Source: an uncultured Granulosicoccaceae bacterium
Lineage (GTDB): Bacteria > Pseudomonadota > Gammaproteobacteria > Granulosicoccales > Granulosicoccaceae
DNA length: 36,566 bases
Assembly (NCBI GenBank): GCA_937928685.1
Contig: CALGJU010000053.1
Coordinates: 1 to 36,566 of the forward strand
Direction of reading: 5' to 3'
Shown here one piece after another: positions 1,630 through 21,063 of the stretch. Made by a program: the position numbers and the translations under genes. The notes beneath the pieces are model-generated. The model was not told the DNA's origin. It searched no databases and was given only the letters and a program-made list of their open reading frames with translations. Each line of letters begins with the position of its first letter. Positions within the stretch are counted from its first letter, which is position 1.

Positions 1630-1697
1630 ATCCAATTATTTATAGGCTACAAATGGCATTCCGTCGAGCGCAAAAACAAGACTGTTTGACGCGGCGA

Positions 1698-1727
1698 AGT
1701 ATACGGGCGGAAGTGTCCAAGGGTCAA
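1698..1727 (-). promoter_or_regulatory. sigma70-type promoter of the atp operon
   Basis: On the minus strand a -35 box TTGACC (1722-1727) and a -10 box TATACT (1698-1703) are separated by 18 bases. Both hexamers are five-of-six matches to consensus. They lie about 70 bases upstream of the atpI start, inside the roughly 200-base gap that separates parB from atpI. This suggests that atpIBEF has its own transcription start and does not rely only on read-through from parAB. Confidence 0.6.
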
Positions 1728-1832
1728 GGATCAGAATCAGATTCTCTATACGGTATTAATCAGACCAGACCATAGGCCTCAGTGCATGGTCGACCCCGCA
1801 AACAATGATTCTGGTACTTGTTTACAGGCACC

Positions 1833-2807
1833 TTAGTTGATGTGCGACAAAATGCCGTCGAGTTCATCAAGCGAACTATAGCTTATGGTAATGCTGCCCT
1901 TACCACCGCTTGAATGTTCGATAGTCACACCGGCGCCAAGTTTCTCTGAAAGCTGCAGCTCAAGTGCTTTTATATGTCCGTCCTGGGGCTTCCTGGTGGC
2001 TTTGCCACTTTTCTGTTTTTTCGGCGCCGCGCCGCCTCGAGCCAACGCCTCCGTGGCTCGAACACTCAGCCCTTCTGCATACACCTTCATCGCGATCGCA
2101 TGCTGCTCATCAGCCGCTAGCGTCAAAAGCGCTCTGGCGTGCCCCATTTCTATCTTACCGGTGGCGAGCATATCGGAGACCCGCTCATCAAGATCGAGCA
2201 AACGGATAAGGTTAGATACCGCGGCTCGCGAGCGACCGACAGCCTCCGCGACAGAAAGATCTGTCATGCTGAATTCATTTTTTAAACGATACAGCGCGCG
2301 CGCTTCTTCCAACGGATTGAGGTCTTCACGTTGAATATTTTCGATCAGTGTCACCGCCGCCACAGCGGTATCATCCATTTCTCGAACAATCGCCGGAATC
2401 GTTTTCAAACCCGCAAGCTGCGCTGCACGCCAGCGTCTTTCCCCGGCGATCAACTCAAATCCACCACCACGTCGACGCAGTAGTATGGGTTGAATCAGGC
2501 CCTGTGCGGTGATTGAGTCAGCCAATTCCTGCAGCGCCTCAGGGTCAAAGTGAACGCGCGGCTGGTAGGTGCCCCGGGTGATTGCTTCAACCGGGATATC
2601 GCTTACTGACCCTTCGGCAATTTCCGTCCCGTCTGCTTTAGTAAGATCACTGGGTGCTCTGCGCGCCTGCGGCGCGGCGGTTTTAGCCCTATCCCTTGCA
2701 GGCTCAGCAGCTTCATCGTCACCCGGTCTCACCGGTGCGGCGACATCTATGCCTTGAAGCAATGCTCCGAGACCTCGACCTAAACCGCTTTTTTTTGCTG
2801 TCGACAC
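1833..2807 (-). CDS. parB: Chromosome partitioning protein ParB (Spo0J family CTPase)
   Basis: A 324-residue centromere-binding protein that loads on parS sites and works with ParA. Visible landmarks are the N-terminal GLGRGLGALL box that contacts ParA, a variable acidic/Ala-rich linker (about 20-65), the ParB N domain with TYQPR and the CTP-binding motif GERRWRAAQ, then NIQREDLNPLEEA, a helix-turn-helix (about 180-205, with the SVAEAVGRSRAAVSNLIRLL helices), and a C-terminal dimerisation domain after a Lys-rich linker. The start codon is GTG. It follows parA by 44 bases. No perfect parS was found in the window. Confidence 0.97.
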   Translation of the reverse strand: MSTAKKSGLGRGLGALLQGIDVAAPVRPGDDEAAEPARDRAKTAAPQARRAPSDLTKADGTEIAEGSVSDIPVEAITRGTYQPRVHFDPEALQELADSITAQGLIQPILLRRRGGGFELIAGERRWRAAQLAGLKTIPAIVREMDDTAVAAVTLIENIQREDLNPLEEARALYRLKNEFSMTDLSVAEAVGRSRAAVSNLIRLLDLDERVSDMLATGKIEMGHARALLTLAADEQHAIAMKVYAEGLSVRATEALARGGAAPKKQKSGKATRKPQDGHIKALELQLSEKLGAGVTIEHSSGGKGSITISYSSLDELDGILSHIN

Positions 2808-14258: not shown

Positions 14259-15911
14259 CTACAGGGGATCAGGTGCAGACATCAATACCCGACCGAGTGT
14301 CGGGTCGGCTTGATCTGTACTGGCAATGAATTGTTCGATTTTCTGATCAATTTTGGTGCATTTCGCCGTATGCTCAAGACGCACTTTATTGATTTCTGCC
14401 AATTGCAGCTGCGCGTGCTGCGCTACTTCCGCTAACCCGTTACGCAACCCGTGGTGTAACTCGCGATAGATGGCATCTGGCAGCGACGGGACTAATAATT
14501 TCCCAATCATCATTGGTATCAACCAGCCCAATCCGGCAAGTAATAATCCATTGACCAGAAAATCCAAGCCGACGTAGTCTGCACGATCTGCCGCACCGGC
14601 AATAAAACCATTAATGACGCGCCAGCTTACCCAGGCAAGCGCAACTAAAGGTAACGCGATCTTTAGTATTCCTGCCGCTTTTGACAATAGCCGTTGCCAT
14701 TGAGTACCGGGGGATGCAATGGTCGATTCAACAGCTTGTTTGAGATGTTGCGTAATAAGACCACGTGCATCAATAGAGCTCATATCATTTTTTTTCATCA
14801 TCACAGTCGCGGGCACACCATGCTCGCTATCAGCAAGATTAAATTGCTGAATGGAATCTTTCATTCGAATTGAAAGCCAGTCATCCCACAATTCACTGGC
14901 ATCAGACCTGATAGCAATATTGCCAGCGACTTCGGTTCCAGTTTCCTTACTTCCTAATGATTTTAAAACAGTGTTGACCACATTGGTTTTTTCATCGCTG
15001 AACAAAGCGCTGTAGGTCTTGAATGGCGCATCAAGGTGTGCCACTGCCGCGCTTTCAAATTCCTGCCATCGATGTGCGAAGCTTTCATCAAGTTTTTTTA
15101 AACCATCCATAGCAAGGTGTTCGGATTCCACCTTTAACTTAGACTGCACGGCGCCGAGCCTGTGTATCCAGCCACGTTCCTGTAAATGCTCAATCACATT
15201 GCGCTTAGCCAGTGAGGCAATTACTTCCACCAAATCGCCGAATTGGTCCTCGGAATGCGCGCTGTTACACACCGTGCGAAAAACCTCAGGCGCTTGAAAT
15301 CCGGCAGACTCTAGCATACGGGTAAAGTCCTGATACTGAACCGATTCTGCCTTATCCCACTGATTAATCACAAACAGCCAGGCATGCTGGTAACCGTTCT
15401 CCTGCATCATGCGCCAACCTTCTGCATCTTTATAGCGCTCAGGTGTGACGACATATATCAGTAGGTCAATATGCGGCAACCACTGAAGTACCTGATCTTT
15501 GTTTTGCGTTTCATCACTATCAAAATCCGGCATATCGACCCACATCACATCAGACAGGTGGGCGTTACTGTGTCTGTTGTCAGAGAATCGATCAGCGACA
15601 AAATGATCAGGCAATGCATCCAGTTGAACGTCCTGATGAAGATAAGCGGTAATTTCCATCGACGTGGGGCGAACCACGCCTGTGCGCGCAATCTCAGCAC
15701 CGGCAAGACGGTTCAACAGAGAGCTTTTACCGACTCCCGTGCCACCGAACAAGCCCACAACCAGGGGACGCTCCTCCGTTGAAAATAAATCGACCGGGCT
15801 CTTGCTGCTAATCATCGGCGTACTTTGATCAGCACTCCAACCGGTTTCTTTAAGCTCCGCAGTAAATCGCTGCGCTTCAGAAAATAACTGTCGTGCCAGT
15901 TTTTCAGACAT
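14259..15911 (-). CDS. Dynamin-like membrane GTPase, second gene of the pair
   Basis: A 550-residue protein of unrecognised subfamily. The GTPase domain has P-loop GGTGVGKS (56-63), a switch I segment RPTSMEIT (81-88), the G3-type DMPDFDS (126-132) and the specificity motif NQWD (183-186). A long, mainly helical region follows. Then two hydrophobic helices (about 413-435 and 449-473) could form a membrane hairpin, with a helical tail behind. This order resembles bacterial dynamin-like or mitofusin-type proteins, which reshape or fuse membranes; the assignment is by architecture only. Its ATG overlaps the end of the preceding GTPase gene by eight bases, implying translational coupling. Confidence 0.7.
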   Translation of the reverse strand: MSEKLARQLFSEAQRFTAELKETGWSADQSTPMISSKSPVDLFSTEERPLVVGLFGGTGVGKSSLLNRLAGAEIARTGVVRPTSMEITAYLHQDVQLDALPDHFVADRFSDNRHSNAHLSDVMWVDMPDFDSDETQNKDQVLQWLPHIDLLIYVVTPERYKDAEGWRMMQENGYQHAWLFVINQWDKAESVQYQDFTRMLESAGFQAPEVFRTVCNSAHSEDQFGDLVEVIASLAKRNVIEHLQERGWIHRLGAVQSKLKVESEHLAMDGLKKLDESFAHRWQEFESAAVAHLDAPFKTYSALFSDEKTNVVNTVLKSLGSKETGTEVAGNIAIRSDASELWDDWLSIRMKDSIQQFNLADSEHGVPATVMMKKNDMSSIDARGLITQHLKQAVESTIASPGTQWQRLLSKAAGILKIALPLVALAWVSWRVINGFIAGAADRADYVGLDFLVNGLLLAGLGWLIPMMIGKLLVPSLPDAIYRELHHGLRNGLAEVAQHAQLQLAEINKVRLEHTAKCTKIDQKIEQFIASTDQADPTLGRVLMSAPDPL

Positions 15912-17658
15912 TTCCAGACTCCAGCATATGCGTTACCCGTTGCAATTCGTCTGGTGATACGGTGGTTTGTTTGTCCAGCATTTGTTGTTCAATCGCAAGC
16001 AGCGGTTTACGGATTTTTCTGTTAACAATCGACCGCACTTCTTTTTCCTGATAAGCATTCAGCTTTTTTTGAATGCGTTGCATGTACTGCCCTAACGCAC
16101 CTTCGGTTAACAGTGTGGTGAGCGATAACATAGCCGGAGCAACAATTAAATCTACCGCCCCGAGGCCACCAGACTTCACCGCCAACACTACCGCCGCAGC
16201 ATCAGCGGTGACTCTTGCCGCACGCAATCCATTCAGTGTGGCGGGTTGCTCTTGCAGGTTTTGATACAGCGACTGCGCAGCACGATCAATTTCAACATTC
16301 AGCAGCGCCTGATAATTATCCAGGCTTTGATGGTACTTTGTATCAATCTCGCGATCGGCTTGTTCAAGCTGAGTGCGAATCTTTCTCCACCAGGGTCCAT
16401 CAGCACTGGATTCTCGCGCTGCCACTGATGCACTCAGAGACGCCAGCGTATGCTTTCCCAGCTCATCCAGCAGACGGCGTTCTTCGTTTCTTCCATCCTT
16501 CGCAACCGTTGAGGGTTCATTTGCGCGTGAAATTAAGGTGCGCACAGGCCAGGTGACAACACTTCGTATTTTACTCAACGGACCGGCCATTCCCGGAACT
16601 TCAAGCAAAACTAACAGTTCAGACAGCGCAAGCTGAATTACTTCCCGGTGTCGGTCACTCTCAAGATATTCAGTTTTGTATCGCTGCAGGCTGCTATCAA
16701 CAACAAGATCGACCATCACATGATATTCATGCTGCATCCGATGTTCTGCACTAACTGCTGAAGTCCAATTCGGCCAGTGCAACCGCAGATACTCAAGCGT
16801 ATCGGCTTTAAGTTGCTCAGGTTGGCGGCGTCTCAGCTGTTGCTGCACTATCTGGCGCAACGCTTCAAGCTCAGTACTTGAAGCTGCACTCATTAGATCA
16901 TCGGGATATTCATCAATAAATGTGATTGGTGGAACGCTACTCGCAGGCATCGATGCCTGATACTTTTTCTCTAGCGAAGCTCTTAACTCATCCCTTGGCT
17001 CAGGCGGGGTTTTATTCATCGCCAACACGGATGGTATGGCACGATCGGCGACTAACTCAAGCATTTGCCATACGGTTTTATCAGCATATTTTTCCTTACT
17101 GACCACAAACACCACAAGATCTGCCAACGCGATCGCCTTCAACAGCGGAGCACGATAATCAAACGAATTTACCGAATCAAAATCCGGTGTATCCCAGAAG
17201 ACAGTATCTTTGAATTTCGAATTTGGAATGACCACTTCCTGCAGTGAGTATTCACCCAGCACCTGCCTGTCCAGCGCACTCTGCTGAGAGATACTCAGCT
17301 CACCAAAGTATCGAGCGGCCCAATGATCAGATCGGGTATAAATATTGTGCACTTCGTCTACCACATGAAAGCCCTGGCAATGCACGGTGAAGCCCGCCTG
17401 TGCACTGGATTCAGCCAGCTGTTGCTGTAATAACAGATTCACTACGGCGCTCTTTCCGACTTGTGTCGGGCCAATTACCACTACCTGTAACGGGTAGCCG
17501 GTATCTTCTCTGCCCAGTGATAACTTGTTCAAAGAAGTTTGTGCAATAGCGAGCGTTGTCAGTGAATATTCGAGTTGCGCTGCTTCATCCGAGTGAGTAA
17601 CGCCCGCATCAAGCTTTGCCTTGTTGCGCTGTATTAATTGATTTATAAAATCTTGCAC
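15904..17658 (-). CDS. Dynamin-like GTPase, first gene of the pair
   Basis: A 584-residue protein with a GTPase domain: P-loop GPTQVGKS (63-70), G3-type WDTPDFDS (155-162), and NKTP (215-218) where NKxD is expected, so the guanine-specificity Asp is missing. The remainder is helical. A weakly hydrophobic Ala/Val/Leu-rich stretch (about 480-525) may touch the membrane, and a charged helical C terminus follows. The WDTPDFDS motif closely matches the DMPDFDS of the downstream partner, suggesting a duplicated, diverged pair that may heterodimerise. It starts with GTG only six bases after ubiA, so the three genes probably form one transcript. No specific function is recognised. Confidence 0.68.
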   Translation of the reverse strand: MQDFINQLIQRNKAKLDAGVTHSDEAAQLEYSLTTLAIAQTSLNKLSLGREDTGYPLQVVVIGPTQVGKSAVVNLLLQQQLAESSAQAGFTVHCQGFHVVDEVHNIYTRSDHWAARYFGELSISQQSALDRQVLGEYSLQEVVIPNSKFKDTVFWDTPDFDSVNSFDYRAPLLKAIALADLVVFVVSKEKYADKTVWQMLELVADRAIPSVLAMNKTPPEPRDELRASLEKKYQASMPASSVPPITFIDEYPDDLMSAASSTELEALRQIVQQQLRRRQPEQLKADTLEYLRLHWPNWTSAVSAEHRMQHEYHVMVDLVVDSSLQRYKTEYLESDRHREVIQLALSELLVLLEVPGMAGPLSKIRSVVTWPVRTLISRANEPSTVAKDGRNEERRLLDELGKHTLASLSASVAARESSADGPWWRKIRTQLEQADREIDTKYHQSLDNYQALLNVEIDRAAQSLYQNLQEQPATLNGLRAARVTADAAAVVLAVKSGGLGAVDLIVAPAMLSLTTLLTEGALGQYMQRIQKKLNAYQEKEVRSIVNRKIRKPLLAIEQQMLDKQTTVSPDELQRVTHMLESGNV

Positions 17659-17664
17659 TGATTG

Positions 17665-18561
17665 TTAACTCATCATCCGGCGTGTGAAGAAATCGAAAAA
17701 TATACCCAGAAAAATAAATCCGCCCATAGGATTGTTCAGCATAAACGCTCTGAAACACTTCGCAGGCTCACGCGTTTTGATCAACTGCCACTGCTTCAGC
17801 AAGACGGCACCAGCGACTATCAGACCGATAAGAAAGAACCAACGTAAGCCACTGGCGAAACCAATCATCGCAACCCCGGCAAGCACTATGCATTGCAACC
17901 CCATAACGATAGAAACATCGTGCTCCGCAAAAAGTATTGCCGTGGATTTCACACCAAGTTTGATATCGTCTGAGCGATCAACCATGGCGTAAATAGTGTC
18001 ATAGGCAAGAGCCCAGACAATAGCCAGGAAATAAAACAGCCAAGCAACCCGGTTGATCTCGCCAGTCTCAGCCGCACTCACCATCGGCACTGCCCAACCA
18101 AAGGCGAGACCAAGAAACAGTTGCGGCCAATGGGTAACACGCTTGGTAAACGGATACAGAAAAGCCAAGCCGACGCCAACAAATGAAAGCGCAATAGTGA
18201 ATCGATTCATTGTCAAAACCAACAGAAACGACACAATAGACAGCCCGATGGCCACCATCACCGCCTCGCGAGGTGACACAGCGCCTGTCACAATCGGTCT
18301 GTTTCGAGACCGCTCAACCGCACCGTCGATGTGTCGATCAGCAAAATCATTTATTGCACAACCTGCTGAGCGCATTAGAAAAGTGCCAAAAACAAACACT
18401 GTGAGCACAGCCCAGCTCGGCTTACCCTCAGATACGATCCACAGCGTCCACAACATCGGCCACAGCAACAAGGCAGCGCCTATGGGTTTGTCGGCCCGGA
18501 CCAAACGAACATACTGGAGCAGACGATCAGATAACACGGAGGAAGTATCGCTCAACGACAT
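17665..18561 (-). CDS. ubiA: 4-hydroxybenzoate octaprenyltransferase
   Basis: A polytopic prenyltransferase of 298 residues that attaches the polyprenyl tail to 4-hydroxybenzoate in ubiquinone synthesis at the inner membrane. Both Asp-rich motifs are present: NDFADRHIDGAVERSRNRP for prenyl diphosphate/Mg2+ and YDTIYAMVDRSDDIKLG. The open frame runs upstream to a TTG at 18633. I prefer the ATG at 18561 because the length then matches the family (about 290) and a TATAAT box (18602-18607) lies inside the would-be extension. The chorismate lyase gene ubiC, a frequent partner, is absent here; two GTPase genes follow instead. Confidence 0.96.
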   Translation of the reverse strand: MSLSDTSSVLSDRLLQYVRLVRADKPIGAALLLWPMLWTLWIVSEGKPSWAVLTVFVFGTFLMRSAGCAINDFADRHIDGAVERSRNRPIVTGAVSPREAVMVAIGLSIVSFLLVLTMNRFTIALSFVGVGLAFLYPFTKRVTHWPQLFLGLAFGWAVPMVSAAETGEINRVAWLFYFLAIVWALAYDTIYAMVDRSDDIKLGVKSTAILFAEHDVSIVMGLQCIVLAGVAMIGFASGLRWFFLIGLIVAGAVLLKQWQLIKTREPAKCFRAFMLNNPMGGFIFLGIFFDFFTRRMMS

Positions 18562-18601
18562 TGTTGTTATACTTTTATTGAAAGTGGCAGTAAGAGCCAC
18601 G

Positions 18602-18628
18602 ATTATAAACGCCTGCCCATGAGCGCAA
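18602..18628 (-). promoter_or_regulatory. Possible ubiA-GTPase operon promoter
   Basis: On the minus strand a perfect -10 box TATAAT (18602-18607) precedes the preferred ubiA ATG by about 40 bases. -35 candidates are TTGCGC at a 15-base spacing (18623-18628) or TTGTCT at 20 bases (18628-18633); both spacings are poor. The -10 supports the shorter ubiA start. Confidence 0.4.
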
Positions 18629-18700
18629 GACAATTATTCCGCTCGTAACAATTATTAAGACTGCTACCGCACCGTTGATTGGTGGCACTAAGGAGCTTCC

Positions 18701-20352: not shown

Positions 20353-21063
20353 TTAGCGTCGCTTGTTCCTCACCAACTCAAGGGCCGCTTGATAATTGCT
20401 TTGCATAAAACCCGCTAGATCTTCAAATTGGCTATCAGTGAGCTGCGCAAGCGTTTCATCATCAGAAAAGATAGCACTCAGTGTCTGGCGTCGCTTGTCT
20501 CGCTGCTGGTCTGGCTGCTTGTCTACCGGGCCCTGTGTTCGAATAGCAACCTGCTCATCGGCCGTTGCTGCAACGGGTTCGTATAAGCCTCTTAAGCGAT
20601 CAAAGAATTCAAGCGGATCCCGGTGTCTTAACACCTCGACCGCTTGATCAAACCATTCATCCGGAAACACTTCGCGCCCGGCTTCAGCTGCTTCAACAGT
20701 AGTGCGCGCATCTTGTCGATTCATCGCTCTGGCAAAACCATCAATGGTGTAACCTGCAGCCTCGCGAAGTTCGCGCAAATAATCTCCTGCTTCTTTCCAG
20801 GCTTCATCGGATTGATATCGATGATCACTTTTTTCGTAGTCTGCCTGGCGCCCGGATTCGTCTCTGGTGTTTTTATCAAAAGGTTTGCGACTTGAATGAC
20901 GCTGTCGTGATTCACTATTGCCCGAGGCAACAGTATCGAAGCCACCATCAAGCCTCTTTGAAAACTCATTGGCGAAAGACATGAATTCGCCAATAACGCG
21001 TGCCGCCTGTTCGCCCGCCTCTGTGAAACGCTGTTTGTCGCTTGAAGTGTGACGTGAGTCCAT
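20353..21063 (-). CDS. Unrecognised protein with an XRE-like helix-turn-helix segment
   Basis: A 236-residue hydrophilic protein with no signal peptide or membrane helix. The first third is charged and low-complexity (Ser, Arg, Lys, Asp). A segment at about 95-150 (EAGDYLRELREAAGYTIDGFARAMN...VEAAEAGREVFPDEWF) follows the spacing of a Cro/C1 helix-turn-helix: LRELREAAGYTIDGFARAM would be helices 1 and 2. The end (about 200-236) is helical and acidic, then basic. It could be a DNA-binding regulator. AGAGG lies about ten bases before the ATG. The DUF6868-type gene follows after 26 bases and may share the transcript. Confidence 0.6.
   Translation of the reverse strand: MDSRHTSSDKQRFTEAGEQAARVIGEFMSFANEFSKRLDGGFDTVASGNSESRQRHSSRKPFDKNTRDESGRQADYEKSDHRYQSDEAWKEAGDYLRELREAAGYTIDGFARAMNRQDARTTVEAAEAGREVFPDEWFDQAVEVLRHRDPLEFFDRLRGLYEPVAATADEQVAIRTQGPVDKQPDQQRDKRRQTLSAIFSDDETLAQLTDSQFEDLAGFMQSNYQAALELVRNKRR

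Follow-up and report, generated by a model that had tools for sequence, protein, structure and literature searches.

Layout and motifs of the GTPase genes

The window, a stretch of 36,566 nucleotides from an uncultured Granulosicoccaceae bacterium, belongs to a 77%-complete assembly of 332 contigs, the nearest named relatives of which are uncultured Granulosicoccaceae of the Gammaproteobacteria. On its minus strand lie two adjacent genes for large GTPases, here called A and B, which open reading frames, motifs and predicted folds mark as dynamin-like. GTPase A (15904..17658, minus strand) has a GTG start and comprises 584 amino acids, with a G domain at about residues 55-276, a helical neck or stalk and a conserved hydrophobic tip at about residues 461-526. 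GTPase B (14259..15911, minus strand) comprises 550 amino acids and is predicted to combine a mitofusin-like G domain and neck with a trunk that carries a two-helix membrane hairpin. A is the upstream gene and B the downstream one, and their reading frames share 8 bp (15904-15911). The upstream neighbour of A is ubiA, encoding a UbiA prenyltransferase (17665..18633, minus strand), and the gap from its end at 17665 to A is 6 bp. These coordinates agree with the eight-base overlap and six-base spacing given in an earlier, sequence-only reading of this DNA.

In A, the G1 motif or P-loop reads GPTQVGKS (residues 63-70; 17449..17472, minus strand), and the pattern GPTQxGKS is invariant among 28 relatives of A. 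The G3 motif is WDTPDFDS (residues 155-162; 17173..17196, minus strand). The G4 motif of A, NKTP (residues 215-218; 17005..17016, minus strand), is degenerate: the residues NK are invariant and the next two are variable, with the final specificity Asp found in 4 of the 28 relatives and missing in 24. For two loci, L063 and L079, the motif was read from the alignment as NKAN and NKAS, respectively. The corresponding motifs of B are GGTGVGKS for G1 (residues 56-63; 15723..15746, minus strand), VDMPDFDS for G3 (residues 125-132; 15516..15539, minus strand) and NQWD for G4 (residues 183-186; 15354..15365, minus strand), the last conserved as N[QH]WD in 25/25 relatives of B. Both proteins thus carry the motifs of large GTPases, with G1 and G3 in all members of A and B and a complete G4 in all members of B. 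The motifs had been described in the same way before: NKTP without the Asp in A, NQWD in B, and the G3 sequences WDTPDFDS and DMPDFDS. Because some members of A keep the G4 Asp, A may be an ordinary GTPase.

Both genes are under strong purifying selection, with dN/dS values against the nearest relative of 0.07 for A and 0.09 for B (0.12 for ubiA). In A, the dN/dS comparison shows constraint in the G domain as well as in the stalk, and with its low overall value A is therefore not a decaying gene. A profile comparison of A with B relates the two proteins in the G domain only (99.3% probability, columns 57-281 vs. 49-242) and found no sequence relation outside it. The description of A and B as a duplicated pair is consequently supported for the G domains only.

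Predicted folds and membrane segments

Pfam assigns MMR_HSR1 and a sub-threshold Dynamin_N match, and NCBIfam gives partial matches of the Era/Der type, all of them mainly in the G domain. No Pfam or NCBIfam model spans the whole of either protein, in keeping with the sequence-only reading, which had recognised no named family. AlphaFold2 models were built from the 28 A and 25 B relatives and have a mean pLDDT of 82 (A) and 81 (B). Foldseek ranks chain C of 5owv/5oxf, a subunit of the Campylobacter Cj-DLP pair, first for both models (A 9e-8, B 7e-10), and the next matches are BDLP, Drp1, IniA, Fzo1, mitofusin and EHD proteins. A superposition of B on yeast Fzo1 with VIA-align gives a Z of 22.0 and 3.1 Å over 287 residues spanning 1-537; since this alignment uses residues 1 to 537, the N- and C-terminal helices of B are predicted to join a dynamin neck. 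The corresponding superposition of A is looser (Z 19.4, 5.9 Å, 326 residues), and whole-chain TM-scores are modest at 0.38-0.40 at best.

Could A and B nevertheless be ordinary GTPases of the Era/EngA/YcjX type that carry unrelated helical tails? The sequence matches do go to Der, Era and MMR_HSR1, but they are confined to the G domain, whereas the structural matches to Fzo1 and mitofusin take in the neck helices at both ends, the alignments of A and B reaching residue 1 and the C-terminal helix. A plain Era/YcjX-type GTPase, which scores at about Z 15 over the G domain only, was rejected on the predicted structures, and we find this explanation hardly credible. The predicted folds, a G domain with a helical neck in each protein, support the assignment of both A and B as dynamin-like, as had been proposed from the letters alone.

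B contains two predicted transmembrane helices forming a hairpin (residues 408-426 and 456-474 by hydropathy; 14490..14690, minus strand), and two strong hydrophobic helices are found at 408-474 (window B numbering) in 25/25 B proteins. In A, a highly conserved block with a hydrophobic tip (residues 461-526; 16081..16278, minus strand) includes a stretch at residues 499-517 that is hydrophobic by hydropathy. Conservation in residues 461-520 of this block is 0.73-0.80 per column, vs. 0.76 for the P-loop region of A. The earlier statement that only the second GTPase keeps a membrane hairpin is therefore right about the hairpin in B, but not in implying that A has no membrane element: the hydrophobic tip lies within one of the most conserved regions of A, so that A is not devoid of a membrane-type segment. 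The most conserved part of B is its G domain. Since the tip of A equals the P-loop region in conservation and B is conserved most in the G domain, we infer a division of labour in which the strongest constraint falls on the tip of A and on the GTPase of B.

Co-inheritance and gene neighbourhood

Among 274 sampled genomes of the class (Gammaproteobacteria), 20 carry both A and B, and one further genome, 58% complete, carries B alone (Fisher p 2e-29). Within the family of the window, B was present in 40/40 sampled genomes and A likewise in 40/40, the count for A combining several searches. Homologues showing these motifs are scattered over roughly a dozen of its families. A and B are accordingly adjacent, co-inherited dynamin-like genes, and the neighbourhood survey bears out the expectation that they are conserved as a pair. 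Phylum-wide samples of 398 genomes gave no carrier besides the genome to which the window belongs; at most three candidates per genome were scored there and the sample is unlike that of the class, which makes this weak evidence of absence. Protein distances of A and B correlate with r 0.96, a value that shared vertical descent alone would also bring to a high level. Plasmid and phage collections yielded one weak partial match each, and carriage of the pair by mobile elements or phages was rejected.

Of the 25 intact A-B pairs, 24 have overlapping reading frames. Open-frame lengths in the class and family samples gave no sign of an A-B fusion such as B. subtilis DynA. One genus (g3) breaks up the operon: in its loci (L110-L128), two genes on the opposite strand that by eye resemble peroxiredoxin and CobT genes, and sometimes additional genes, separate A from B, and in five genomes A and B lie at least 10 kb apart or on separate contigs. 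Both are retained all the same, which speaks for a joint requirement and not just for joint carriage. In a single genome, low-complexity tandem repeats (translated as HLSSFIF / LTAHRSP) lie directly downstream of B (L078:10548-11058).

The proximity of ubiA had hinted at a role related to quinones or inner-membrane lipids; an explicit form of this idea would be a role of the pair in ubiquinone or inner-membrane lipid synthesis, with all three genes in one operon. The 6-bp gap in the window and the presence of ubiA upstream of the pair throughout Granulosicoccaceae are consistent with this proposal. Outside that family, however, ubiA precedes the pair only in the sampled genomes of two others (f52 and f61), and in nine pair-bearing families (f10, f37, f67, f76, f90, f127, f132, f137 and f168) the pair has other neighbours and no adjacent ubiA was found. 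On the A tree and on the B tree alike, the linkage requires two changes and is limited to one part; a single origin is possible. The conserved block of the ubiA-linked lineage consists of glutathione reductase, ubiA, A, B, comF, OmpA-like and radC; the non-quinone genes among these are carried along just as ubiA is, and outside the pair itself no neighbour is constant. Because ubiA stands upstream in one part of the trees only, and there within a fixed gene order, a quinone role is unsupported and in our view very improbable; ubiA is probably not part of the system, and its position most likely reflects shared gene order. Among the papers searched, none links Granulosicoccus to dynamin, and none brings dynamin-like proteins together with ubiA, a GTPase and an operon. 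Beside the block, a protein with a weak helix-turn-helix match (HTH_31) and no NCBIfam match is conserved in eight loci; in the window it lies at 20353-21063 (minus strand).

Known dynamin pairs and a possible cellular role

In bacteria, genes for dynamin-like proteins mostly occur as pairs within operons (PMC6104087; pairing is also described in PMC4159319). The sequence-only reading was thus correct in pointing to paired bacterial dynamin-like proteins, but its suggestion of an undescribed system does not stand: with paired dynamins so common in bacteria, A and B do not represent a new kind of system. The closest structural counterpart, Cj-DLP1/Cj-DLP2 of Campylobacter jejuni (PDB 5owv/5oxf), likewise consists of diverged dynamin-like proteins encoded side by side; it forms a 2:2 tetramer in which GTPase activity is raised and which tethers liposomes (PMC6104087). 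On the other hand, identity to the Cj-DLP pair is 12-13%, both proteins of the window are shorter, B carries a predicted two-helix hairpin, and the assembly domain of Cj-DLP1 has been described as Campylobacter-specific (PMC6104087). In Streptomyces, the membrane-anchored DynB has DynA as an interaction partner (PMC5827413). By description, this pair resembles the proposed A-B pair in having two dynamin-like partners, one anchored in the cytoplasmic membrane and the other interacting with it, and differs in acting in sporulation septa. B also superposes on the G domain and neck of mitofusin/Fzo1, and its predicted two-helix membrane segment in the trunk is a further likeness, although identity is 13%, A and B are bacterial, and no likeness to mitofusin was found at the sequence level.

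LeoA, described as a virulence factor, offers a further comparison, for which the PADLOC LeoA model served as yardstick. Together with LeoBC it constitutes another tandem, in which the E. coli order is the LeoBC genes followed by leoA (PMC4159319). LeoA is the best named dynamin match for both proteins (B 6e-11, A 1e-9), and LeoBC matches the stalk and tip of A; the LeoA model matches 25/25 B and 25/28 A proteins, the LeoBC model 22/28 A and 20/25 B. These are the only whole-DLP models that match A and B, and here, too, the gene order begins with the protein that LeoBC matches more strongly. The matches are, however, weak and partial: in B the best LeoA stretch covers profile positions 16-194 of 559, and in A LeoA covers 102-231 of 559 and LeoBC 348-534 of 601, so that neither protein matches at full length. 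Moreover, LeoB and LeoC are split, with the membrane anchor in LeoC, whereas A and B are whole and the hairpin lies in the trunk of B.

Sequence, motifs, predicted folds, co-occurrence and purifying selection are best explained, with a probability of roughly three in four, if A and B belong to an unnamed paired dynamin-like family, as its two subunits, and form a heteromer at the inner membrane that tethers, fuses or repairs membrane. The formation of a heteromer, its topology in the membrane, the use of GTP and the role in the cell are inferred as follows. Anchoring in the inner membrane would be the part of B, a GTPase of mitofusin-like shape in which an N-terminal helix, the G domain and a helical neck are combined with the trunk hairpin. 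Its partner A would have a G domain that is perhaps less guanine-selective in most species, and a hydrophobic tip that contacts the bilayer. The heteromer would sit on the cytoplasmic face of the inner membrane, the tip of A providing a second membrane contact, and contact between the G domains of A and B together with stalk assembly could harness the turnover of GTP for tethering, fusing or repairing that membrane. A more specific version, which we put forward only tentatively, makes the pair asymmetric: B would be the mitofusin-shaped, hairpin-anchored inner-membrane GTPase, and A would have lost guanine selectivity in most lineages and act mainly through its conserved tip, as a membrane-active protein that is nucleotide-promiscuous or nucleotide-independent.

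The pair might instead serve at the septum as a partner of the FtsZ ring, as Streptomyces DynA/DynB do, since the same split between one membrane-anchored protein and one partner is seen there (PMC5827413). Near the pair, however, we recognised no division gene, and most of the class divides without the pair, which makes this role rather unlikely. Similarly, A and B could guard the membrane against phage or lysis in the manner of B. subtilis DynA, which delays phage lysis (PMC8844932); the weak matches to the PADLOC LeoA and LeoBC models point in the same direction. Against such a function, the pair occurs in 40/40 genomes of one family, where it has a fixed housekeeping synteny, is essentially absent from plasmids and phages, and in other loci has no defence genes beside it as judged by eye, and we regard it as distinctly unlikely. 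An association with sulfur oxidation was also considered and rejected: dsrA is above the cut-off in 5/20 pair-carrying and 12/40 other genomes.

A and B add to the bacterial dynamins an unnamed, strongly diverged pair that is present in every sampled genome of one family and that no Pfam or NCBIfam family model describes. B joins a mitofusin-like predicted shape to a trunk hairpin, and A sets a loose nucleotide motif against a rigidly conserved tip. How two unequal dynamins split nucleotide and membrane work could thus be tested in a small bacterial system.

The weak matches from the plasmid and phage collections are two stretches resembling B. Phage MT837334.1, a faecal phage contig, has an unannotated stretch at 1683-2231 (minus strand) that resembles the G domain of B (27% identity over 30% of the query) and possibly encodes a phage-borne dynamin-like GTPase. 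A weak, unannotated B-like stretch lies at 11769866-11770561 of the Nonomuraea record NZ_LT559118.1, which at 11.85 Mb is chromosome-sized, though filed among plasmids.
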